From NCBI GenBank assembly GCA_027013185.1, contig JALUXS010000098.1:1-37454 (forward strand): 37,454 bases of DNA, given 5' to 3'. Of the stretch, positions 23,593-37,254 are shown piece by piece; the stretch's first letter is position 1; each line of letters begins with the position of its first letter. The DNA is from Sulfurimonas sp. GTDB lineage: Bacteria > Campylobacterota > Campylobacteria > Campylobacterales > Sulfurimonadaceae. The notes beneath the pieces were generated by a model. That model made no database searches, had not been told where the DNA came from, and saw only the letters and a program-made list of their open reading frames with translations. Position numbers and translations under genes: made by a program.

Positions 23593-24108
23593 ATGAAAAA
23601 TATTGTACTTATAGGCTTTATGGGCGTGGGCAAAGGCAGTGTAGCTAGAGAAGTTGTCAAACATTCTGATTATATTGCCATAGATACGGATGATCTTATA
23701 GAAAGTATGGAAAATAGAAAGATTAAGGCTTTATTTGAAGCAGAAGGCGAAAAGTATTTTCGTAAATTAGAAAGACATGTTGCAAAATGGCTTGAAAAAA
23801 GTGTGCACAATACGCTTGTTTCTACCGGCGGTGGTTTTTATAAACAGGAAAATTTAAAAAAAATAGGTACAATTGTGCTTTTAGATTCTCCTTTTGATGC
23901 AATCATTAAAAGAATTAAAGAGCATCCCAATGCTGCTAAAAAATTAAAAAAAAGACCGCTTCTCAAAAATTTAAAAAAAGCAAAAGAGCTTTATAATGAA
24001 AGACGTTCAGGATATTTGGAACTTGCAGATATCGTTATAAATGTAACAAATAAAAATCCTGAGATGTGTGCAAAAGAATTATTAAAAAAGGTAAAAAAAT
24101 ATGCGTAA
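23593..24108 (+). CDS. aroK: shikimate kinase
   Basis: IGFMGVGKGSVA, DTDDLIE, FRKLE, VSTGGGFY, LKKRPLL. Confidence 0.9.
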   Translation: MKNIVLIGFMGVGKGSVAREVVKHSDYIAIDTDDLIESMENRKIKALFEAEGEKYFRKLERHVAKWLEKSVHNTLVSTGGGFYKQENLKKIGTIVLLDSPFDAIIKRIKEHPNAAKKLKKRPLLKNLKKAKELYNERRSGYLELADIVINVTNKNPEMCAKELLKKVKKYA

Positions 24109-24538
24109 AATAGTACTAACCATAGCTTTGTTATTTACAACAACACTTATGGCAGATGGAATCCATTGGGCGAAAGATTATAATAGTGGAATAGAATTAG
24201 CGAAAAAAGAGAATAAACCTGTAATGTTTATAATTTCTAGTCACTCATGCAAATACTGTCTTCTTTTAGATAGAACAACATTTCATGATTCAAAAGTAAT
24301 AAAAGCAGTAAACAGAGATTTCATAGCTATTCGTTCATGGACAGATCAGAGAGATTATATTCCTGCTACTCTTGCACGAAATACTCCTGGTCTTCCGGGT
24401 ATTTGGTTCTTATTTCCTGATGGAAGTCCAATGTACCAGCCTTTGTTGGGGTATATTCAGGCACCTAACTTTGTGGGTGCATTAGCTACTGTAAAAACAG
24501 ATTTTGAAAAATCTAAAAAGAGAGTAATGAAAAAATGA
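24101..24538 (+). CDS. exported thioredoxin-fold protein (CKYC)
   Basis: Signal peptide MRKIVLTIALLFTTTLMA, KPVMFIISSHSCKYCLLLDRTTF, TPGLPGIWFL (cis-Pro region). Confidence 0.85.
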   Translation: MRKIVLTIALLFTTTLMADGIHWAKDYNSGIELAKKENKPVMFIISSHSCKYCLLLDRTTFHDSKVIKAVNRDFIAIRSWTDQRDYIPATLARNTPGLPGIWFLFPDGSPMYQPLLGYIQAPNFVGALATVKTDFEKSKKRVMKK

Positions 24539-25824
24539 TATTTGTAAAGTCAACTGATAGCAATTTTAGTCAAAAATTCGATGAACTTTTAACCCGTGGA
24601 AAGATGGATATTGCTCATGTGAGTGGTATTGTTGGCGGTATTATTGAAGATATTAAAACAGATAAAAATTCGGCACTCAAATTGCATATTGCAAAATTTG
24701 ACAATTGGACGCCGAAGAGTGATGAAGATTTAAAAATAACAACAGCTTCTATGCAAAAAGCTTATGAAAATATTGATAAAACTTTAAAAGACTCTCTGCA
24801 TTTAGCCTATGATAGAATTAAAACATATCATGAAAAACAAAAACCAAAGTCTTGGTTTGATACAGAAGCAAACGGGACGATATTAGGACAAAAAGTAACA
24901 CCTGTGGATAGTGCTGGACTTTATATTCCGGGAGGTAAAGCTGCTTATCCATCTTCACTACTTATGAATGTAATTCCTGCACAAGTTGCCGGTGTAGAAA
25001 ATATTATAGTTTGTACACCGACACCTGATAACGAACCAAATGAATTACTTTTAGCAGCATGTCATCTTTGCGGCGTAAGTGAAGTATATAAAGTCGGAGG
25101 AGCAAGTGCTATTGCTGCTCTTGCTTATGGAACAGAGACAATACCTAAGGTAGATGTTATTACGGGACCGGGAAATATTTTTGTTGCAACAGCAAAAAAA
25201 ATGGTTTTTGGTGAAGTTAACATAGATATGATAGCCGGACCGAGTGAAATCGGTATTTTGGCGGATGAGAGTGCAAATGCAAATCATTTAGCTATAGATT
25301 TACTTTCTCAAGCAGAACATGATGAGATGGCAAGTTCTATTTTAATTACGCCATCACAAAAACTGGCTGACGCGGTGAAAATCGAAATAGAAAAATGGTT
25401 GCTCAAACTTCCTCGTCAGGAGATAGCAAGAAAGTCAATCGAAGAACGTGGTGCAATAATAGTAAGTGAAAATATGCAAGAAGCAATTAGCTTGATGAAT
25501 AAAATTGCTCCTGAACATTTAGAAGTGGCAACAATGAGCCCCTTTGAACTTTTGCCATACATTAAACATGCCGGAGCCATATTTTTAGGTCATAATACAC
25601 CTGAGGCTATTGGTGACTATGTTGCTGGACCAAATCATACTTTACCAACAGGAGGAACAGCAAAATTTTATTCACCCTTAGGTGTTGAGAATTTTATGAA
25701 AAAAAGCTCTATCATCTCATTTAGTTCTAAAGCTATCAATGAAATAGGAAAAGAATGTGCACTTATAGCTCATACCGAAGGTTTAACTGCACATGAAGCA
25801 TCTGTTCGCGTTCGTATGAAATAA
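24535..25824 (+). CDS. hisD: histidinol dehydrogenase
   Basis: PVDSAGLYIPGGKAAYPSS, VGGASAIAALAYGTETIPKVDVITGPGNIFVATAKK, AGPSEIGILAD, SQAEHDEMAS, GPNHTLPTGG. Confidence 0.97.
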   Translation: MIFVKSTDSNFSQKFDELLTRGKMDIAHVSGIVGGIIEDIKTDKNSALKLHIAKFDNWTPKSDEDLKITTASMQKAYENIDKTLKDSLHLAYDRIKTYHEKQKPKSWFDTEANGTILGQKVTPVDSAGLYIPGGKAAYPSSLLMNVIPAQVAGVENIIVCTPTPDNEPNELLLAACHLCGVSEVYKVGGASAIAALAYGTETIPKVDVITGPGNIFVATAKKMVFGEVNIDMIAGPSEIGILADESANANHLAIDLLSQAEHDEMASSILITPSQKLADAVKIEIEKWLLKLPRQEIARKSIEERGAIIVSENMQEAISLMNKIAPEHLEVATMSPFELLPYIKHAGAIFLGHNTPEAIGDYVAGPNHTLPTGGTAKFYSPLGVENFMKKSSIISFSSKAINEIGKECALIAHTEGLTAHEASVRVRMK

Positions 25825-26079: not shown

Positions 26080-26718
26080 ATGCAATTAGGTTTCCTAGTT
26101 GATTTACACCTGTGTATGGGTTGTAAAGGTTGTGAGATCGCATGTAAAGTGGAGAATGAAGTTCCACTTAGTACATGGAGACTTCGTGTTAAGTATGTGG
26201 ATGTGGGAACTTTCCCAGAAACTAAGAGAACATTTACTCCTCTTAGATGTAATCACTGTGAAAATGCACCATGTGAAAGAATATGTCCGGTATCGGCTCT
26301 TCATTATATAGAGAACGGTATTGTAAATATTGATAAAGAGAGATGTATAGGTTGTGCAGGTTGTGTTATGGCTTGCCCTTATGGTGCTATTTATATAGAC
26401 CCAGAAACACAAACAGCAGATAAGTGTACATATTGTGCACACCGTATTGCATCAAGTATGATGCCTGCTTGTGTTGTTGCATGTCCTGTTGAAGCAAATA
26501 TTTTTGGTGATCTTGACGATCCAGCTTCAAATATTTCTAAGTATATTCAAGATCATAGAGATGTGCGAGTACGTAAACCTGAGAAGGGTACAAATCCTCA
26601 TCACTTTTATGTTGGAGGTGGAGACGTAAATCTTAATCCTCTTGCATCACAAAGAATTGAAGGTTTTAACTTATTTGATAAAATTACAACACTTCCTTTA
26701 GGAGGGCACCACGAATGA
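26080..26718 (+). CDS. 4Fe-4S electron-transfer subunit (DmsB/PsrB-like) of a molybdoenzyme complex
   Basis: CMGCKGCEIAC, CNHCENAPCERICP, CIGCAGCVMACPYGAI, CTYCAHR...PACVVACP give four cluster motifs. ATG at 26080 preferred over TTG 26062 (GGAG at 26071). Confidence 0.92.
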   Translation: MQLGFLVDLHLCMGCKGCEIACKVENEVPLSTWRLRVKYVDVGTFPETKRTFTPLRCNHCENAPCERICPVSALHYIENGIVNIDKERCIGCAGCVMACPYGAIYIDPETQTADKCTYCAHRIASSMMPACVVACPVEANIFGDLDDPASNISKYIQDHRDVRVRKPEKGTNPHHFYVGGGDVNLNPLASQRIEGFNLFDKITTLPLGGHHE

Positions 26719-27638
26719 TACATGAATCTTTGGCTGCAACACATGCAGTAGTGACTTTGGACGTACCGTTACCAGACATATTTTGGGGCTGGTTTGTTAC
26801 AATGAATATGTGGGCGAAAAGTATAGGTACAGGTTTAATCTTTATGCTTTTCTTATTACTTAGAAAAAATTCTAGTGAAATGAAAGGACTAAGGACTTTA
26901 ACACTTATAGTTTCATTTATATTTATGAATGTTTTCTTATTGTTTACATTGGCTGATTTACATCAACCATTTAGAATGTGGCATATATTTTTCTATCCTC
27001 ATTGGACGTCAGCTATTACAGTTGGTGCATGGATGGCAACACTATTTGTTGCTATGGAATTCATTATGATAGTCGTAATGATTAGAAAAGAAAACTGTTT
27101 ACTTACAAAAAATCCTGTAGGTTTTTTTGATAAGATGCTTTTTTGGTTAACACTTCTTGCTATTCCTGTTACACTCTATACTGCTGGTATTATGGCAGAG
27201 GCAAGTGCACGTGAATTGTGGCAAATGTCAACAGAATCAGTACAAATGATTTTAGCAGCAACTCTTTCTGGTTCAGCAGCTATTATTTTACTTGGTGGTT
27301 CAAAACTTAGTGATGAAACAAAACAATTTTTCGGAGCGATTTTAGGTTTAAGTGCTTTACTGGCATTTATAATTTACATGTCAGAATACATCTTCGGTGG
27401 AATGAAATCAGAAGAAGTAACAGCTATTTTAGCACATGTAAAAGGGAATGGTGAGTATTCAACTATGTTCTGGATAGGACAATGGGTTGCGTATATCTTA
27501 CCAATGTTACTTGTTGCTCTTTCAAGAGTCAGCAAAAGTAACAGTCTTTTAAGTCTTGCGGCTATTCTAGCAATCGTAGGTCTATGGGTAGTAAAACATG
27601 TTTGGCTAGTTATTCCACAATTATTACCAATGAGTTAA
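26715..27638 (+). CDS. NrfD/PsrC-like integral membrane subunit
   Basis: 307 aa, multiple TM helices; ADLHQPFRMWHIFFYPHWTSAITVGAWM typical of NrfD/PsrC; overlaps the FeS subunit gene by 4 nt. Confidence 0.88.
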   Translation: MIHESLAATHAVVTLDVPLPDIFWGWFVTMNMWAKSIGTGLIFMLFLLLRKNSSEMKGLRTLTLIVSFIFMNVFLLFTLADLHQPFRMWHIFFYPHWTSAITVGAWMATLFVAMEFIMIVVMIRKENCLLTKNPVGFFDKMLFWLTLLAIPVTLYTAGIMAEASARELWQMSTESVQMILAATLSGSAAIILLGGSKLSDETKQFFGAILGLSALLAFIIYMSEYIFGGMKSEEVTAILAHVKGNGEYSTMFWIGQWVAYILPMLLVALSRVSKSNSLLSLAAILAIVGLWVVKHVWLVIPQLLPMS

Positions 27639-27651
27639 GGAGAAAATATAA

Positions 27652-30600
27652 ATGTATTTACAAAGTAGAAGAACATTTTTAAAAGGTGCTGCATTTAGTG
27701 TTGCTGGTGTGGCTATAGCAAAGGGTGTATTTGCAACTGATGCAAAGGCAGAGTCTGTAACTGATTCTAAGTTTACAAATACACCTAAAACGCTTTCATT
27801 TTATCCTGATCAATCTGAATGGGATAGTTTTAAAGAGTTAGATGGAACGGATTGGAAACGTGGTGGTATTGAGCGTCATGGTGTAAGAAGTGCTGAAAAT
27901 CCAGATGGTATTCAAGTAAATGATTACACAATCGTGCCTACAGTTTGTTCAAACTGTGAGGCTGGTTGTGGGTTAACTGCATGGGTTAACAAGAACGATT
28001 TTGATAAAGGAGTACTTACTGTACGTAAATATATGGGTAATCCATTACATACAGGTTCTCGTGGTCGTAACTGTGCAAAAGGGTATGCTGTAACATCCCA
28101 AATGTACGATCCAGATCGTATACCTTTTCCAATCAAAAGAGCTCCAGGTTCTAAACGTGGTGAAGGGAAGTGGGTTCGTGTAACTTGGGATGAAGCAATG
28201 GCTGCAATCGGTAAGAAAATGCACGATACTCTAAAAGTTGGTGATGAAGTTTCTAAAAAATCTATTATGTACCATGTTGGTCGTCCAAATGAAAATGGTT
28301 TTGGCCCACGTGTTCCACAATCTTTAGGTATTGACGGATATAACTCACATACAAATATCTGTTCTGCAGGTGCTCGTGAAGGTACAATTCAATGGGCAAA
28401 TGATGATAGAAATTCACCAGATTGGGCAAATGCTGATCTTATTTTCTTACAATCATCACATGCTGCAGATGCAGGTCACTACTTCCAACAATCAGCAGGT
28501 TATATTGCTGATGCTAGAAAGCGTGGTGCTAAGATGGTTGTTATTGACCCTCGTATGTCAAACTCAGCTGGTATGGCTGACCTTTGGATTCCAACTTGGC
28601 CAGGAACAGAAGCAGCTCTTTATCTTTATTTAGCAAATCGTGTTTTACATGAAAAGAAAAAAGATGGTTCGGATGTAGTAAATCATGAATATGTAAAAAA
28701 CTGGATGAACTGGGACAGATTGATGGCAAATAAAGATTATCTTAAAAAGATGATTGGTTATGGCTATATTTCTAAAATGCCAAAAGATGATTCTTATGAA
28801 TCATTTATTGAGTTAGCGAAAGAACTTTATGCTCCATATACAAAAGAGTTTGTAGTAAAAGAATGTCGTCTTGAAGGCATGGAATATAAACTTGACGAAT
28901 TATGGGAACTTTTTGTTCCAGCCGGTGCTAAAATAGCATCTTACCTTTGGCGTGGGGGAGCAATTGGTCACCGTGGTGGTTGGATGAATACTCGTGCTGG
29001 TTTCTTACCTCTTGCTCTTGTTGGAGCAATGCGTGGAGATATTGGTGGAATAGGTATGCACCATTGGCATGAAATTTCAGTTGCCGGTAAAGGTGACAAA
29101 GCTACAGTGGCTGGTGTTCACCCACCAAAAACTGATGCATGGAATGAAATTGCTTGGCCACCGGAATATCCTATAGCAACATATGAAATGGGATTTATGA
29201 TGCCGCAACTTATGATGGATGAAGAATGGCATGAAAAGTGGACAAAAAAAGGTCTTAAGATTCCTAAGTCTATGGCTGTATATGTTCCAAGAATGCACAA
29301 TCCACTCTGGATTAATCCGGATGGTTTCAGATGGATGGAAGCATTAAAGCGTGAAGATAAATTTGAATTAACATTTAACTTGTCTCCAACATGGTCTGAG
29401 ACAAACTGGTATTGTGATTATGTACTTCCTGTTGGACTTGCTGGTGAGAGAAATGATCAACAATCTACTCCATCTAAACCAGAACAACGTATTGAATTCC
29501 GTCAAGCGGTACTTCGTGTTGCTGCTGAAAAAGCTGGTTGGAAACCAAAAGATCCAACTCGTGCTACACTAGAAGCACACATGAAATTTGGTCTTGGTGA
29601 AGTTTGGGAAGAGAGCGAATTCTGGCCAAACCTTATTATGCATCATGTTGACCCTGATGGTTCTCTTGGTATTGCAAAATACTGGGCAAGTAAAAAAGAT
29701 CCGTCTCGTTGTGTTACTGTACCTGAGTATTTTGATGAAGCATTTAAGTTATTACCAAAACTAAAAGCAGAAGCTACAAAACTTTATAAAGGTGAAGAGT
29801 ATCCAATCTATAGCTATATGAGAGATCATGGTGCTTGGACTGAGAAAACTGATGTGTATAAACCTCAAGAGGAAGAGCTTGAATTTGATGGAACACATTA
29901 CCATGCACATGGTCATAAATATGCTAAAAATGAAGTAACTAAAGATGAGTTTGGTGCATTATGGGTTGATGATGGTAATTTCAAAAAATCTATAGGCGTT
30001 GATGTAGACGGTAAGCTTCATGAAGGTTTCCATACATTAAGTAAGAAACTTGAGTTCTTTTCTGAGTGGTTAGCTGATGAATGGAAGTGGCCTGAGTATG
30101 CGGTGCCTATTTATCCAAGAAATGATGCAGAGAGTGAAAAAATGATTCACCTTGTCACACAGGTACACCATAAGCATATGAAAGGAGATAATGAATTTGC
30201 ACTAAATAATATCTATCGTCTACCATATAATATTCATACGCGTTCTGTGAACTCTAAACATTTAATGGAAATTTCACAAAACCATAACCCTGTATGGATT
30301 TATACAAAAGATGCTGAGAAACTTGGTATCAAACGTGGTGATGCTGTAAAAGTACAGATTCAAGATACTTTAACTGGCATTAAAAGTGGTTATTTTATTG
30401 CTATGGCTGTACCAACTGAAGCAACTCGTCCGGGTGTACTTGCATGTTCACACCATGCTGGTCGATGGAAACTTCAAGACTCTGTAAAAATCCCTGGATT
30501 TGAGCATACTCTTGGTATCATGAGTTTAGGTTCTCCAAAAGTTTCTATGACAAATGATGGAAAAATTGGAACTATGACAACTACTGAGGGTATTCATCCT

Positions 30601-30942
30601 CATAAAGCATGGCAGTTTAAAGAGTACAATAGAGACCTTGAAGATATCTGGTGGAATGGACTTAGTGGTGCATGGCAAAATGCTGTATCTCCTTGTCATC
30701 CAGACCCTATTGCCGGAAATCATGGTTGGCATCAAAAAGTTATTCTTTCTAAGGCTGGAGCTGATGAGAAAATAGGTAATATTTATGTAAATTATGAAAG
30801 TAACTTCAAAGTTTACAAAGCATGGAGAGATCAATTATCTCGTCCATTAACAGCGGCAGATAAATTACGTCGTCCATATCACATTAAACGTCCTGTAAAA
30901 CCAAGCCAAAAAGCTTACGAGTTTAATATTAAAGACGTTTAA
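27652..30942 (+). CDS. molybdopterin (bis-MGD) oxidoreductase catalytic subunit, Tat-exported, 1096 aa; substrate unknown
   Basis: Tat signal SRRTFLKGAAFSVAGVAIA; FeS motif CSNCEAGCGL...GRNCAKG; TWDEAMAAIG; candidate Mo ligand Cys237 (HTNICSAGAREG); VVIDPRMSNSAGMADLWIPTWPGTEAALYLYLAN; C-terminal MopB domain (GIKRGDAVKVQI). Confidence 0.93.
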   Translation: MYLQSRRTFLKGAAFSVAGVAIAKGVFATDAKAESVTDSKFTNTPKTLSFYPDQSEWDSFKELDGTDWKRGGIERHGVRSAENPDGIQVNDYTIVPTVCSNCEAGCGLTAWVNKNDFDKGVLTVRKYMGNPLHTGSRGRNCAKGYAVTSQMYDPDRIPFPIKRAPGSKRGEGKWVRVTWDEAMAAIGKKMHDTLKVGDEVSKKSIMYHVGRPNENGFGPRVPQSLGIDGYNSHTNICSAGAREGTIQWANDDRNSPDWANADLIFLQSSHAADAGHYFQQSAGYIADARKRGAKMVVIDPRMSNSAGMADLWIPTWPGTEAALYLYLANRVLHEKKKDGSDVVNHEYVKNWMNWDRLMANKDYLKKMIGYGYISKMPKDDSYESFIELAKELYAPYTKEFVVKECRLEGMEYKLDELWELFVPAGAKIASYLWRGGAIGHRGGWMNTRAGFLPLALVGAMRGDIGGIGMHHWHEISVAGKGDKATVAGVHPPKTDAWNEIAWPPEYPIATYEMGFMMPQLMMDEEWHEKWTKKGLKIPKSMAVYVPRMHNPLWINPDGFRWMEALKREDKFELTFNLSPTWSETNWYCDYVLPVGLAGERNDQQSTPSKPEQRIEFRQAVLRVAAEKAGWKPKDPTRATLEAHMKFGLGEVWEESEFWPNLIMHHVDPDGSLGIAKYWASKKDPSRCVTVPEYFDEAFKLLPKLKAEATKLYKGEEYPIYSYMRDHGAWTEKTDVYKPQEEELEFDGTHYHAHGHKYAKNEVTKDEFGALWVDDGNFKKSIGVDVDGKLHEGFHTLSKKLEFFSEWLADEWKWPEYAVPIYPRNDAESEKMIHLVTQVHHKHMKGDNEFALNNIYRLPYNIHTRSVNSKHLMEISQNHNPVWIYTKDAEKLGIKRGDAVKVQIQDTLTGIKSGYFIAMAVPTEATRPGVLACSHHAGRWKLQDSVKIPGFEHTLGIMSLGSPKVSMTNDGKIGTMTTTEGIHPHKAWQFKEYNRDLEDIWWNGLSGAWQNAVSPCHPDPIAGNHGWHQKVILSKAGADEKIGNIYVNYESNFKVYKAWRDQLSRPLTAADKLRRPYHIKRPVKPSQKAYEFNIKDV

Positions 30943-31017: not shown

Positions 31018-31668
31018 ATGAATAATGATTTAAAACAAGAGCAGATTGCAAGAATAAATATATATGCACTCATTTCAAGAATTATGATAGGTGAAATTGA
31101 TGAAGGGCTATTAAAATCAATAGAAGAAGATGAAAATATACTCTCTTTTTTTCCAACATTTAAAGATTGGAAAAGAAGAAAAGAACATAGTTCAAAAGAT
31201 TTGATAGAACGATATTTGAATGTTGATTTTACTAACCTTTTTTTACTTCATTTAATTCCTTACGAATCTTTTTATATGCGAGAAGATCAGATGTTGGAGA
31301 CTGGCGGCGAGAATCCAGTGCAAGCAATTTTTAATGCTTTTGAATTTAAAGTTGAGCTAGATAAAGCTCGTGTAATGGCATCTGATCATATAGGTGTTGA
31401 GTTAGAATTTATGTATGAATTGTGCAAAGCAGAGCTCAAAGCACTAGAAGATGATAATATGGAAATGGCAAAACAACTTTCACAGCTTCAATATGGATTT
31501 ATGAAAGATCATATTTTAGAGTGGGCTCCAATGTACCTTCTCAATGTCAAAAGTGAGGCAGGGACAGCATTTTACTTTGATGCTGCTGATTTGGGTTTAG
31601 AATTTATGATGAGTGATTTTGAATATTTAACAGAATTAAAAAATAATGGATATAACTACCCAGTATGA
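31018..31668 (+). CDS. TorD/DmsD-like molybdoenzyme maturation chaperone
   Basis: ASDHIGVELEFMYELCKAE and WAPMYLLNVKSEAGTAFYFDAADLGLEFM pattern; adjacent to a Tat-exported molybdoenzyme. ATG at 31018 (alternative TTG 31012). Confidence 0.85.
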   Translation: MNNDLKQEQIARINIYALISRIMIGEIDEGLLKSIEEDENILSFFPTFKDWKRRKEHSSKDLIERYLNVDFTNLFLLHLIPYESFYMREDQMLETGGENPVQAIFNAFEFKVELDKARVMASDHIGVELEFMYELCKAELKALEDDNMEMAKQLSQLQYGFMKDHILEWAPMYLLNVKSEAGTAFYFDAADLGLEFMMSDFEYLTELKNNGYNYPV

Positions 31669-32765
31669 GTCTTTTAACCTTAGATGTCAGCAAATGTGTT
31701 CATACTTCAAATAAATTTGCGATTTGTAATAGTTGTGTAGAGGCATGTCCTGTTGAAACTATAAAGTTGGAAAACTCCGCTATATCCTTTACCCCCAGTG
31801 AATGTGTTGGGTGTGGCGGCTGTGATGCTGTTTGTCCAACGGCTGCATACACATTAGATGATTTTAAACCGATAAATTATGTTTTTAAATTTTTAGAAGA
31901 TGAAGAAAGCGTTCTTACATGTAATGATGAAAATTTTCCATGTATAGCATCATTAAGTGTTGAAGAATTACTAAGTATTGCTTTAATATCGTCCGAAGAA
32001 GTTACTTTAGATATAGGACCATGTAGTAATTGTGAGATTGCAAAAACAAACCTTAGTATTATAAAGAACAGGGCAGAAGAAGTAAATTTTCTCCTAGAAG
32101 CAATGGTGCAGAAAAAATCTTTACATGTAGAAAAATTAAATTATGAAGTTACAAAAGAAATAGACGCTTTAAGTAGACGTAAATTACTTTCTAAAGAAGG
32201 TGTTAAAACTGCCATAAGCATAAAGCAGCAATTGCAAAATGAAGTTAATGCCAGTGACAAAAATGTAAAAACACATAAAGTTACCGCACAAGACATAATG
32301 AAGATAAAAGAGAAAAATATTCCTCAAAGACGTAGTTTATTGCTTATGGCTATGAAACGTGCAAAAGTGCCAGAAGTTTTTCATACAATTGATATAGAAG
32401 ATATTTCATTTATTTCACAAAAAGATTTAGATGAAACTACATGTACAAATTGTCAAATGTGTTATAGAATCTGTCCGACAGGGGCACTGAGTTCAGACCA
32501 TAGAGGGAGTAAGATTAATTTCAATCCACTTAGTTGTGTTCAGTGTCACAGTTGTCATGATGTATGTGAACCAAACTCTTTAACATTGAGAAATACATTT
32601 TCTCTTGCAAGCTTTTTTGAGCCAAAAATTGAAACTTTAGTTCATTTTGATATAAAAAGATGTGATGAATGCGGGAATTTCTTTGCATATAAGGGTGGAG
32701 AAAAACTGTGTAACAGATGTAGAATTGAAGAAGAAGAAGCAAAAGAATTGTGGGGGATCAAATGA
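31665..32765 (+). CDS. poly-ferredoxin-like 4Fe-4S protein with C-terminal zinc-ribbon-like Cys motifs
   Basis: CNSCVEACP, CVGCGGCDAVCP, CTNCQMCYRICP, CVQCHSCHDVCEP and terminal CDECGNFF...KLCNRC. Confidence 0.88.
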   Translation: MSLLTLDVSKCVHTSNKFAICNSCVEACPVETIKLENSAISFTPSECVGCGGCDAVCPTAAYTLDDFKPINYVFKFLEDEESVLTCNDENFPCIASLSVEELLSIALISSEEVTLDIGPCSNCEIAKTNLSIIKNRAEEVNFLLEAMVQKKSLHVEKLNYEVTKEIDALSRRKLLSKEGVKTAISIKQQLQNEVNASDKNVKTHKVTAQDIMKIKEKNIPQRRSLLLMAMKRAKVPEVFHTIDIEDISFISQKDLDETTCTNCQMCYRICPTGALSSDHRGSKINFNPLSCVQCHSCHDVCEPNSLTLRNTFSLASFFEPKIETLVHFDIKRCDECGNFFAYKGGEKLCNRCRIEEEEAKELWGIK

Positions 32766-33187
32766 GTGAACATATGAATACTATAGATACGATGAATGCT
32801 GCTGATGATATTAAAAAAGAGACAAAACTCTTTGGCCTTATTGCTGAACATGCTAGTCCAAATAGACTGTTTGTAATGCTCAATAAAGAAATAAAAGCAA
32901 ACAATGTCGATGCAATGATGATACCTATGAATATACGTGAAGACGATTTTTATTTTACGCTTTCAAATATGAAAAAATCACATGTAAACGGGGCATATAT
33001 AGCTCCTGAATATCAAGCAAATGCAGTTGAACTTTTAGATGAAGCCGATGAATTTGTACAAGTTTATAATAAATGCGATTTTGTCCTTAGGGATGGAGAA
33101 AAATTGATTGGGACATATCTAGAAAAGAATAATACTTTGCTTGGCGAAGCTTTAGCAAAAGAAATATTTGAAAAATACATAAGATAG
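32762..33187 (+). CDS. stand-alone protein resembling the shikimate dehydrogenase (AroE) substrate-binding N-domain, catalytic residues not conserved
   Basis: KLFGLIAEHASPNRLFVMLNKEIKANNVDAMMIPMNIREDDFYFTLSNMKKSHVNGAYIAPEYQANAVELLDEADEFVQVYNKCDFVLRDGEKLIGTYL aligns by eye along the AroE N-domain pattern. Start moved from 32750 to ATG 32762 (ATGA overlap). Confidence 0.65.
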   Translation: MSEHMNTIDTMNAADDIKKETKLFGLIAEHASPNRLFVMLNKEIKANNVDAMMIPMNIREDDFYFTLSNMKKSHVNGAYIAPEYQANAVELLDEADEFVQVYNKCDFVLRDGEKLIGTYLEKNNTLLGEALAKEIFEKYIR

Positions 33188-33197
33188 GAAGATTACT

Positions 33198-33659
33198 ATG
33201 GATATAAAAGATTTAAATGAATTAAGAAGTGAATTTGAAGTGATGCAAAAACAGGCAATGCAAGATGCTTGTGTTGATGGAAGCTGTGTTGAAGATGAGG
33301 ATTATGAAGATTATCCTGATTATTTACGTGCAATTTATGCAGAGATCATACCTCCTGCTAAGAGTGGTATTTACTTTTCAAGATGGGATTTAAAACGTAT
33401 GGCTGCGGAATTAGATGAATCTTTTGCTATAGATGTTCGAGAAAGAATGTTCAAAAATTTTATGCAGTGGATTGCAACACCAGAAGATATGTTGGCAGTT
33501 GTAGATCAATTTAAAAGTCATATAGATATGAAATGTGATTTGTATAAAGAGTACTCAGAAAAATATCCTGCAATGCAAGAGCTTTTTGAACCAAAAATAC
33601 AAAAAGCCGAGAAAGCAAAAAAATATCTTGATAAGGTTTATGTAGAATTTTTTACATAA
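33198..33659 (+). CDS. uncharacterised acidic protein, last gene of the molybdoenzyme operon
   Basis: 153 aa, CVDGSCVEDEDYEDYPDYLRAIYAEIIPPAKSGIYFSRWDLKRMA; 10 nt after the previous gene; GGAAG-type RBS. No family recognised. Confidence 0.75.
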   Translation: MDIKDLNELRSEFEVMQKQAMQDACVDGSCVEDEDYEDYPDYLRAIYAEIIPPAKSGIYFSRWDLKRMAAELDESFAIDVRERMFKNFMQWIATPEDMLAVVDQFKSHIDMKCDLYKEYSEKYPAMQELFEPKIQKAEKAKKYLDKVYVEFFT

Positions 33660-34803
33660 GTTTATTGAGTATATCTTTTTTTATTTTATTAAGATTGAGC
33701 GAATGTCCATCATTGGCGTTTGCTTCAAGCTTTGAAATATATGTGTCTAAACCTCTCTCTTGATAATGCATTACTAAGAGCATAAGCAATTCTTTAACTG
33801 TTTTTGCATTTTGAATATCTTCAAATTTTCTCTTTTTATTTTTATTAAAAAATGATTTTTGGCTTATTTTGGCAGTTGAAAATCCAGCTAAAAAGAGCAA
33901 AGCATAGATGAAAAACTCTTTTATTGCTTGAGTATTTATAAAATTTTCTGTTTTAGGTGCATCTGTTTTGTCTATTAATGTTGTAGTATCCATCTTTTGC
34001 ACTTTTATATTATATGTTTTTGCATGCAGTGTGTAGTATTTATTTTTACTGGGAGAGTATACATGTAAAGAGAATGCGGGAATTGTAAAGTTGTTTTTTG
34101 AAGTCATAGCATATATGTATTCTGTCTTAATAATAAAACCACTTTGTGTAAGTTTTGATAAATCATTATTGATTTTTGAAAATATTGTTACATTTTTAAT
34201 AGCTTTGTTCAGTATATTTAAGTGAGAATTTTTGTACCCTGTGCCGCTTAGTATATAATGAAGATTCACTGCACCATATTGATTGATTTGTGTCGTATCT
34301 ATTTTTGAGTGAAGCGTAAAATCTCCTACCAAATCTACGGGCTGTAGCAATTTTTTTACTTTTATTGTTAATGGCTTTAGAACTACTTTTGTATTTGAAG
34401 TACTAATACCTACACTATTATCATGATCGTCCACATAACTTTGCTTTACAGCTTTATCACTGGCTGTTCGTATAATAAAATTAAATTTTATATGCAACGT
34501 TTTTTCTTTTAATGCAAAAAGTACATATTGAAAAATTGTTGTAGTATTGTGAAAGCTATTATCGTGTATAGTTTTATGCAGAAGTTTTACCTCATAATCA
34601 GGACTTTTTTGTATAGTAAATTCAAAAAACATATTGTCATTATGATCTTTTTGTTTGGCTGTAAAGGTAAGAAGGAGAGGCTCTTTTATATGAACACTTT
34701 TTTTATTGGTTTGTAGCTTATATGTTGCCAATTGGGTGTTTCCAAAAAGTGACACACAAAAGAGTATAATCAATAAAGTAATTTTACCAAGGGTGTTTTT
34801 CAT
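33652..34803 (-). CDS. BatD-like exported membrane protein
   Basis: Signal peptide, beta-rich exoplasmic region with repeated TIKVKK-type strands, one late TM helix; downstream of vWA Bat genes. Low primary-sequence identity expected. Confidence 0.65.
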   Translation of the reverse strand: MKNTLGKITLLIILFCVSLFGNTQLATYKLQTNKKSVHIKEPLLLTFTAKQKDHNDNMFFEFTIQKSPDYEVKLLHKTIHDNSFHNTTTIFQYVLFALKEKTLHIKFNFIIRTASDKAVKQSYVDDHDNSVGISTSNTKVVLKPLTIKVKKLLQPVDLVGDFTLHSKIDTTQINQYGAVNLHYILSGTGYKNSHLNILNKAIKNVTIFSKINNDLSKLTQSGFIIKTEYIYAMTSKNNFTIPAFSLHVYSPSKNKYYTLHAKTYNIKVQKMDTTTLIDKTDAPKTENFINTQAIKEFFIYALLFLAGFSTAKISQKSFFNKNKKRKFEDIQNAKTVKELLMLLVMHYQERGLDTYISKLEANANDGHSLNLNKIKKDILNKLM

Positions 34804-36346
34804 TTGTATATCCTTTGTTTATAAGTTCATAGGCTTTATAGCCCAGTTTATATTTTGATTTATTTTTATGTTTTGTGAGCTGTAAATTTTGATTTTGTTT
34901 TTTCTTTTTTTTGTTTTTACCACTCCCATTACTTTTTTGTGAAGCTTTTTGATTTGACTTGGATGAGGCACTTTTACTTGTACTTTTTTTCTGATTTTGT
35001 TTTGTTACCTCTTTTTTTTGTTTTCTTTTTTTAGGAAGCATATCAGAGAGATTTTTTTGCTCTTTTACTCCTAATTTATATAAAAGTGAAAGATTGTAAA
35101 AAGCATCTTTATCAAATCCAAGTGCCAAAGCTTTTTGATAATAACGTTTAGCTCGCTTATATTTTTTTAATTTTACAGCACAGTTTGCGAGATTATAAAA
35201 AATATTTTGTTTTAATTTCGGATTTGTAGATTGTATTTGAGAAAAAAGTTCTATAGCTTTTTTATAATTTTTTGCTTTGTAGTAGGCAGTTGCACTGTTA
35301 TAGTAGCTTTTTGGTGAGGGTGAAATCTTTTTAAACTCTTTTGCAGCTACAATAAATTTTTTACTTTTATATGCTTGATTTGCTTTGTTGTTATGGTAAA
35401 AATCAAAGAGTGATGCCGCATGACTTTGATAGGGTAAAAGAAATAAGGGAATAAATATAAAAAATTGCTGCAGTTTTGTGACAGAAATAAAAAAACTTAA
35501 AAGTGCTATAACAAGAGGGAACATGAAAAGTTCTTTATAGCTAAGTACTTTTATGGTTGATTTTATGTCGCTATTTTTATTTTTTATATCTGCAATAATT
35601 TCTTTGGCTATATCTTTATTTGTATGTAATTCATAATATTCTCCGTTGCACTCTTTAGCTAAAGGTTCAAGAAGAGGATTTATTTTAGAAATCACAAGGT
35701 TTTTATTCGTATCTAAGATGGGCTTATTTTCTTTTTTGAGTGTTGCTCCGCTGTTTGAACCTGTAGCAACTATATAAGGAATAATGGAATTTTTTTTACA
35801 TAGTTGGACAAGTTCATTGAGGTCTCTATCCTCGCCTCCATCAGTAAAAATAATAAGATTTTTTTGTTTGTAAGATGTTTTTGCAATACTTTTAAATAAA
35901 GAGAGCAGGGAAGTGCCTTTTGTCAGTATATATTTTGGTTCAAGGGAATTGAGTGCCATCATGCTTATTGTACTATCTGTTGTCGGCGGTGATATAAGCA
36001 TAGTATTGGATGTAAAAGCAAATATACTAAATCTGTCTTTACTCAAGCTTTTTAAAATACGCTTTATATTTTTTTTTGCCGCGTCATACCGTGTCGGTTT
36101 TAAGTCATCTGCTTGCATTGAAAATGAGGCATCAAGAGCTATAATGTAATCTTTGGCATCAAATTTTTGCTCACTGGGTGTATTAATCATCACAGGTCTG
36201 CTTAAAGCCAGTAATGCGAAAAAAAGTGTTATGTAAAGTAAATATTTTTGTCGTTTTTTCTCTTTTTCTTTTGGACTTGCATCGCTTTTATATAAAAAAT
36301 ATAGGGGTATAAATCCAAATAGAACCCAAGGATATAAAAGAGTCAT
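34784..36346 (-). CDS. BatB/BatC-type fusion: vWA domain plus TPR repeats and a basic low-complexity tail
   Basis: vWA MIDAS (ALDASFSMQADD), IIFTDGGEDRD, TM, TPR (SYYNSATAYYKAKNYKKAIELF; NCAVKLKKYKRAKRYYQKALALGFD), then a K/Q/S/N-rich tail. Confidence 0.85.
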   Translation of the reverse strand: MTLLYPWVLFGFIPLYFLYKSDASPKEKEKKRQKYLLYITLFFALLALSRPVMINTPSEQKFDAKDYIIALDASFSMQADDLKPTRYDAAKKNIKRILKSLSKDRFSIFAFTSNTMLISPPTTDSTISMMALNSLEPKYILTKGTSLLSLFKSIAKTSYKQKNLIIFTDGGEDRDLNELVQLCKKNSIIPYIVATGSNSGATLKKENKPILDTNKNLVISKINPLLEPLAKECNGEYYELHTNKDIAKEIIADIKNKNSDIKSTIKVLSYKELFMFPLVIALLSFFISVTKLQQFFIFIPLFLLPYQSHAASLFDFYHNNKANQAYKSKKFIVAAKEFKKISPSPKSYYNSATAYYKAKNYKKAIELFSQIQSTNPKLKQNIFYNLANCAVKLKKYKRAKRYYQKALALGFDKDAFYNLSLLYKLGVKEQKNLSDMLPKKRKQKKEVTKQNQKKSTSKSASSKSNQKASQKSNGSGKNKKKKKQNQNLQLTKHKNKSKYKLGYKAYELINKGYTNEKHPW

Positions 36347-37254
36347 AGTTGCTCTTCTTTTTGCTTGAATGCAAGGAAAAGAAGTAATAAAAATGCTAAA
36401 GAAAGAGGGTACATGTAAAGATTTTGTTTGTTGAGATAATGTTTAGAACGTATGGCACTCGGTTCGAGTTTATCTATCTCTTTATAAACATCTTGTAATG
36501 CTTCTGCATTTTTAGCTGCAAACATTTTAGACTTTGTATTCTTTGCTATAAGTTTGAGAAGATTCGCATCAAATGTAGTACTATCTCCTATCCCTATAGT
36601 GTAAATTTTTACATGTAACTTGTTTGCTCTTTTTACTGCTTCTTTTACAGAAATAGAACCGCTATTTTCAAAGCCATCTGTAATAAGAATAATAACTTTT
36701 TCTTTCGCTTCTCCTTTTTTAAGTATTTTGAGTGCTGTTGCTAATCCTTCTCCTATGGCAGTACTATCTCCTGCAATGCCAACATCAAAAAAATTAAGTA
36801 AAAAGGCAACACTATTCATATCATAACTCAAAGGAATAGCAGGGTAGGCATAGGTACCAAAAATACTTACTCCGACATTATCATTAAAACGTTTTGTTAT
36901 AAAAGATTTTAGAAGTTCTCTGAGTGCATCAAATTTTCTTTTTTGTGGATTTTTTGTATCAAACCCACTCTCTGCCATAGAACCACTGGTGTCAAGTGCA
37001 AAGACAAGGTCTCGTCCTTTTCGTTTGCTTGAAGTTTTTTGATCATACGTTATAGGAGATGCAAGAGCGAGAATCATTGATGCCAATATAAGAGAATAAA
37101 GAAGTTTTTCTTTATTTATTAAAGAAGTTTTTTTTGAAAAAAGCTGTATATGTGGAAATATAATCTGTTTAAGCGTTTGTGGACATTTGTAGATACAAAT
37201 TACCAAAAGTAAAAGTATTAAAATAGAAGGGTATTCAAACGTAAAATTATTCAA
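36343..37254 (-). CDS. BatA-like vWA domain membrane protein
   Basis: LVFALDTSGSMAESGF (MIDAS), VIILITDGFENSGSISVKEAV, IYTIGIGD, TM helices at both ends. Confidence 0.88.
   Translation of the reverse strand: MNNFTFEYPSILILLLLVICIYKCPQTLKQIIFPHIQLFSKKTSLINKEKLLYSLILASMILALASPITYDQKTSSKRKGRDLVFALDTSGSMAESGFDTKNPQKRKFDALRELLKSFITKRFNDNVGVSIFGTYAYPAIPLSYDMNSVAFLLNFFDVGIAGDSTAIGEGLATALKILKKGEAKEKVIILITDGFENSGSISVKEAVKRANKLHVKIYTIGIGDSTTFDANLLKLIAKNTKSKMFAAKNAEALQDVYKEIDKLEPSAIRSKHYLNKQNLYMYPLSLAFLLLLFLAFKQKEEQL

Follow-up and report, generated by a model that had tools for sequence, protein, structure and literature searches.

The stretch of DNA analysed here, referred to below as the window, comprises 37,454 nucleotides of a Sulfurimonas sp. 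contig (JALUXS010000098.1, assembly GCA_027013185.1), and its forward strand carries an operon encoding a complex iron-sulfur molybdoenzyme of the kind represented by PsrABC, PhsABC and TtrABC. A TtrB/NrfC-like 4Fe-4S ferredoxin subunit (26080..26718; NCBIfam TtrB, E 1e-60, under the cut-off of that model) is followed by an NrfD/PsrC-type membrane anchor (26715..27638; Pfam NrfD, E 2e-16) and by a PsrA/PhsA-like molybdopterin oxidoreductase of 1096 aa bearing the Tat-type leader SRRTFLK (27652..30942), which we call MoA. The nearest PDB sequence to MoA is the Thermus thermophilus thiosulfate reductase 2vpw (E 3e-33), matched over MoA residues 95-340 only. Since Sulfurimonas was reported to use periplasmic as well as cytoplasmic Psr (PMC10045233), polysulfide is one candidate for the MoA substrate.

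Further along the same strand lie genes for a TorD/NarJ-type molybdoenzyme chaperone (31018..31668; Pfam Nitrate_red_del, E 2.3e-15; NCBIfam TorD, E 2.9e-15), a polyferredoxin with repeated 4Fe-4S motifs (31665..32765), a 141-aa AroE-like protein (32762..33187) and P7, an all-helical protein of 153 aa (33198..33659) that is nearly always next in the cassette. The ATG of the AroE-like gene at 32762 overlaps the polyferredoxin stop codon within the sequence ATGA, and its own stop codon ends at 33187. No family was assigned to P7, and a structure search found no PDB fold match for it; a reading as RhoGEF was rejected, the Pfam match (E 0.0024) being under the cut-off. The families of the neighbouring genes bear out the molybdoenzyme operon context that had been proposed originally, and the AroE-like gene and P7 are accessories additional to those of PsrABC, PhsABC and TtrABC.

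Two flanking regions recur at related loci. Upstream, three conserved neighbours (23593-25824) accompany the operon wherever it is linked, namely hisD and genes for shikimate kinase-like and thioredoxin-like proteins; a functional link to the shikimate kinase-like gene (23593-24108) was rejected and its proximity taken as coincidence, because the cassette occurs elsewhere without that gene, for instance at L028. A Bat-type cluster of BatD-like and von Willebrand domain proteins (33652-37254, minus strand) often lies downstream, in most cases on the opposite strand, and is probably unrelated to the cassette.

Predicted fold and active site

Judged by sequence alone, the resemblance of the 141-aa protein to AroE (shikimate dehydrogenase) appears real, or at least suggestive, yet it stays under every curated cut-off. 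Pfam Shikimate_dh_N (PF08501) gave a sub-threshold match with E=0.0017 (19 bits, cut-off 27 bits), NCBIfam shikimate dehydrogenase (TIGR00507) matched residues 16-118 with E=1.4e-5 (17.4 bits against a cut-off of 200), and the top phmmer match in the PDB, AroE 1nvt, reached only E=0.45. It is the predicted structure that decides the question. The AF2 model has a mean pLDDT of 87.8, with about 95 over the core (from residue 21), and its best Foldseek match in the PDB is AroE 3t4e (E 8.6e-9, probability 1.00, TM (query) 0.66). Among the matches listed, 50 of 50 were shikimate dehydrogenase-family enzymes, many of them aligned over about 97-106 columns at 1.4-2.1 A. In the model, a disordered N-terminal tail (residues 1-17) precedes the alpha/beta fold of the AroE substrate-binding, N-terminal domain (about 21-118), which is followed by a short linker and a C-terminal helix (128-140). 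The likeness to this domain that had been claimed in the original prediction was thus upheld by the structural comparison it had proposed, in which the AroE N-domain fold, and not another one, was found. No Nitrate_red_del match of the NarJ/TorD kind was found in Pfam for the protein. The protein contains no Rossmann (NADP-binding) domain, as had also been noticed originally, the next gene being P7 at 33198. No signal peptide is evident in the 141 aa, which suggests a cytosolic location.

Sixteen members of the AroE-like family were aligned with eight canonical AroEs of Campylobacterota, and the residues that we take, from general knowledge of the family, to be catalytic were compared. The NVTVPHK signature of the canonical enzymes reads YIAPEYQ in the window protein (Lys to Gln85, Thr to Ala81, Asn to Tyr79), the substrate-binding serines of SxS are replaced by N34 and L36, VNT reads CDF, and NTD reads YLE, with the catalytic Asp changed to Glu121 at a position that is not conserved in the family. 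The predicted loss of catalytic signatures therefore holds, and it extends beyond the window: the active-site residues are gone from all 16 aligned members, two-domain forms included, and none of those compared keeps the catalytic Lys and Asp. These losses suggest that the window protein is a non-catalytic derivative of AroE, that is, a single-domain pseudoenzyme. Other N-domain residues have become conserved across the family, N41, I54, N57 and I58 being invariant and L23, S73 and E83 nearly so, and they are a place to look for a candidate binding site. A stretch reading MNIREDDF...SHVNG is conserved as well. A separate match to canonical aroE, with its first part missing, was found on contig C32 of the host genome, and canonical aroE was present in 31 of 31 genomes tested; the idea that the AroE-like gene is the shikimate dehydrogenase of the host was rejected on the strength of the C32 copy.

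In comparison with the AroE/SDH superfamily (PF08501 plus PF01488; TIGR00507), the window protein shares the fold of the substrate-binding domain, and its two-domain relatives align with AroE from end to end, whereas the window form lacks the catalytic Lys and Asp, SxS, NxTxPxK and the NADP domain, and its gene is tied to a molybdoenzyme and coexists with canonical aroE.

Short and long forms and their descent

From the genome collection 80 related loci (L001-L080) were fetched. In every one of them the AroE-like gene occupies the same place, after the polyferredoxin gene, and in nearly all contigs that reach far enough it stands before P7, the order TorD, polyferredoxin, AroE-like gene, P7 being fixed nearly everywhere the contig permits. 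The protein occurs in two sizes, about 140 aa in L001-L024 (the only interrupted copy, that of L019, comes from a low-coverage contig and breaks off close to its end) and 250-275 aa in L025-L080. The long forms carry a second, Rossmann-like and partly degenerate domain, whose glycine motif is recognisable in some of them (GAGATARA in L107, GAGALARG in L027) and degraded in others (GTTPHAKAF).

A profile of the long forms aligned with canonical AroE over both domains in hhalign (97.8%, E 1.2e-12), against 0.6% for a column-shuffled control, and the long form L107 matched TIGR00507 over residues 13-272 (E 1.3e-12). The family therefore descends from a whole, two-domain AroE. Forms of family f8 showed no direct link to AroE (hhalign, 1.6%) and are connected to it through other family members and through their position. 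Families f4 and f8, which belong to the same order, have the short form.

In a tree inferred from TorD, polyferredoxin and P7, built with a quick search and containing three rows that form long branches, the short or long state changes at least five times, as forced by the starred branches. The tree itself does not separate gain of the domain from its loss; we read the change as loss, because AroE itself has two domains. Lack of the NADP domain is a derived condition that belongs to particular lineages and is seen several times. The original prediction of an orphan N-domain does not survive this comparison, since most Sulfurimonas relatives carry the longer version, and neither does the notion that the protein was an isolated N-domain by origin. 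Catalytic residues were lost in two-domain members too. The C-terminal helix of the short form could be the old C-terminus of the long form, joined to the N-domain by an internal deletion. This is supported only in comparison with the nearest relatives, L025-L027, three near-copies whose tails score 21-23 against about 9 (SD 4) for permuted tails; comparison with the other long forms gave no support.

Relative to its nearest relatives, the window gene shows dN of 0.05-0.16, dS of at least 0.9 (the larger values being near saturation) and dN/dS of 0.06-0.09, and the short form is under strong purifying selection, with dN/dS about 0.06. This value, together with the place conserved in 80 of 80 loci, argues that the gene is no product of chance. 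The short form is also present in a single-contig genome (G129) and so is not an artefact of assembly. An aroE gene that was truncated, or broken by sequencing, was rejected on these grounds and on the occurrence of the short form throughout L001-L024.

Co-occurrence with the molybdoenzyme

The survey suggested in the original prediction covered 298 genomes of Campylobacterota, 52 with MoA and 246 without it; the relatedness of the genomes inflates co-occurrence counts of this kind. The AroE-like gene was found in 48 of the 52 MoA genomes (43 by a single query and a further 5 by the family profile), and a confirmed intact copy in none of the 246 others; the homologs are thus not random truncations unlinked to the molybdoenzyme. 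Four single-query matches did appear among the MoA-less genomes. Those of G006 and G159 are canonical AroE, that of G086 did not reappear with the family profile, and that of G199 lies on a contig fragment beside a piece of polyferredoxin, so MoA may be present there and unassembled. Across the whole order the AroE-like gene is tightly associated with the MoA-type molybdoenzyme. In many long-form Sulfurimonas the cassette is not beside MoA or lies on another contig (in G252 both are on one contig, at 1377 kb and 389 kb), and the two still co-occur, which argues that more than hitch-hiking within one operon underlies their association. At most of the loci L028-L080 the TorD-polyferredoxin-AroE-P7 cassette is detached from the molybdoenzyme genes. 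The original proposal of a repurposed fold is supported, as is a genuine tie to the molybdoenzyme.

The MoA genomes without the AroE-like gene are G047, in which the polyferredoxin match runs to the contig end, and three of genus g40 in family f4 (G139, G250, G251; loci L134, L135, L139). The latter have kept MoA, TorD, polyferredoxin and P7, which starts there 32-93 bases after the polyferredoxin gene, and have lost the AroE-like gene, which is therefore not strictly required everywhere. P7 is retained in the cassette even at loci from which the AroE-like gene has gone.

A paralogous TorD-polyferredoxin pair (L127, L128, L131) adjoins a second molybdoenzyme operon, which encodes an enzyme of about 958 aa and an iron-sulfur subunit of 366-376 aa and is, by its arrangement, putatively type II DMSO-reductase-like. 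Neither the AroE-like gene nor P7 accompanies this pair, so that both appear tied specifically to the MoA system, and TorD-polyferredoxin pairs can evidently work without an AroE-like protein. In family f7 (L129, L130) a lone polyferredoxin paralogue stands between a queuosine-type gene set and a fabG-like gene; no molybdoenzyme structural gene was found among the neighbours listed at these two loci.

Possible roles of the AroE-like protein

Of the two roles suggested in the original prediction, assembly factor or ligand sensor, both the co-occurrence with MoA and the position in the operon favour assembly or maturation, and maturation is also what the neighbouring chaperone and polyferredoxin genes point to. 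The best explanation, to which we give roughly even chances, would be that the AroE-like protein derives from a duplicated two-domain AroE and, having no catalytic activity of its own, serves in the cytosol as a dedicated factor that assembles or proofreads the Tat-exported, PsrA/PhsA-like MoA. It would share this task with TorD, the polyferredoxin and P7. The AroE N-domain would then most likely serve as a protein-binding module, docking on the polyferredoxin, P7 or the apo-enzyme during insertion of the iron-sulfur clusters and the molybdenum cofactor, a step that precedes Tat export. Such a factor would need neither the Rossmann domain nor the shikimate site, and both may have decayed for this reason.

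The conserved new residues of the N-domain, and its retention alone while the Rossmann domain disappears, could also be accommodated by a sensor of a ligand or redox state. In such a sensor the AroE pocket would have been adapted to bind a small compound, be it a substrate, nucleotide or cofactor precursor, and the protein would act by way of P7 or the polyferredoxin to control how the molybdoenzyme matures or how active it is. A precedent for AROM-type domains as regulators is offered by the fungal repressors QutR, Qa-1S and GaaX (PMC6528562), but the AroE-like protein has no DNA-binding or signalling domain and the cassette contains no regulator gene, and we consider a sensor unlikely. Constant adjacency to the polyferredoxin gene, with overlapping start and stop codons, would likewise be expected of a stoichiometric structural subunit of an electron-transfer complex in the cytosol that also contains the polyferredoxin and P7 and whose task is to supply or withdraw electrons, not to assemble the enzyme. 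Such a relay would have no evident route to the molybdoenzyme, because MoA carries a Tat leader and is served by NrfD and ferredoxin subunits of its own; moreover, TorD in the same cassette points to maturation, and a similar polyferredoxin occurs in a TorD pair without the AroE-like gene. A structural subunit is thus also rather improbable.

The recognisable glycine motif of L107 and L027 might be taken as a sign of a divergent, active enzyme with new chemistry, NADP-dependent in the long forms; with the catalytic Lys and Asp kept in no member compared, the motif degraded in other long forms and the NADP domain missing from several separate branches, this is very unlikely. Least probable, and in our opinion hardly credible, is the view that the gene now has no function, being what is left of a decaying aroE paralogue or a chance truncation of one. 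Although the second domain is present in some lineages and absent from others, and one genus has lost the whole gene, dN/dS is still about 0.06 long after truncation, and the short form is maintained throughout L001-L024, apart from the break in L019, and in single-contig G129. This is the opposite of the relaxed selection or frequent frameshifts to be expected of a remnant.

An assembly factor of the proposed kind would resemble the NarJ/TorD/DmsD maturation proteins in role and setting, as a soluble accessory of a Tat-exported molybdoenzyme with TorD encoded two genes upstream. NarJ/TorD proteins are all-helical, and the alpha/beta fold of the AroE-like protein is unrelated to theirs. Molybdoenzyme chaperones with other folds are known, according to the accessible part of a NarJ-subfamily survey (PMC4464133), which makes no mention of an AroE-like partner. 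In QutR, Qa-1S and GaaX, domains of shikimate-pathway enzymes are considered to work through protein interaction, their catalytic activity having been lost (PMC6528562); these are multidomain fungal transcriptional repressors, though, with no link to molybdoenzymes. In a literature search that took in few subscription papers, we found no description of an AroE-derived protein in a molybdoenzyme system. No paper was found that links shikimate dehydrogenase to redox enzyme maturation, or to Sulfurimonas together with molybdopterin, and the two pairing it with 'molybdoenzyme' were unrelated, as judged by title.

Genes of this family are likely to be mistaken in annotation for shikimate dehydrogenase or for its fragments. 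The series of two-domain, one-domain and lost states provides a natural set in which to trace the new function to one part or another of a pseudoenzyme. Maturation of complex iron-sulfur molybdoenzymes is usually described with a small set of accessory folds, those of NarJ/TorD, NapD, FdhE and FdhD. It is possible, if somewhat short of an even bet, that the AroE N-domain represents a new dedicated class of molybdoenzyme maturation factor in Campylobacterota, a pseudoenzyme taken from aromatic amino-acid biosynthesis that repeatedly shed its cofactor domain after recruitment as a chaperone or cofactor-insertion adaptor of a single respiratory complex. If this is true, the recruited dead AroE domain would add a new fold to the accessories of molybdoenzyme maturation.
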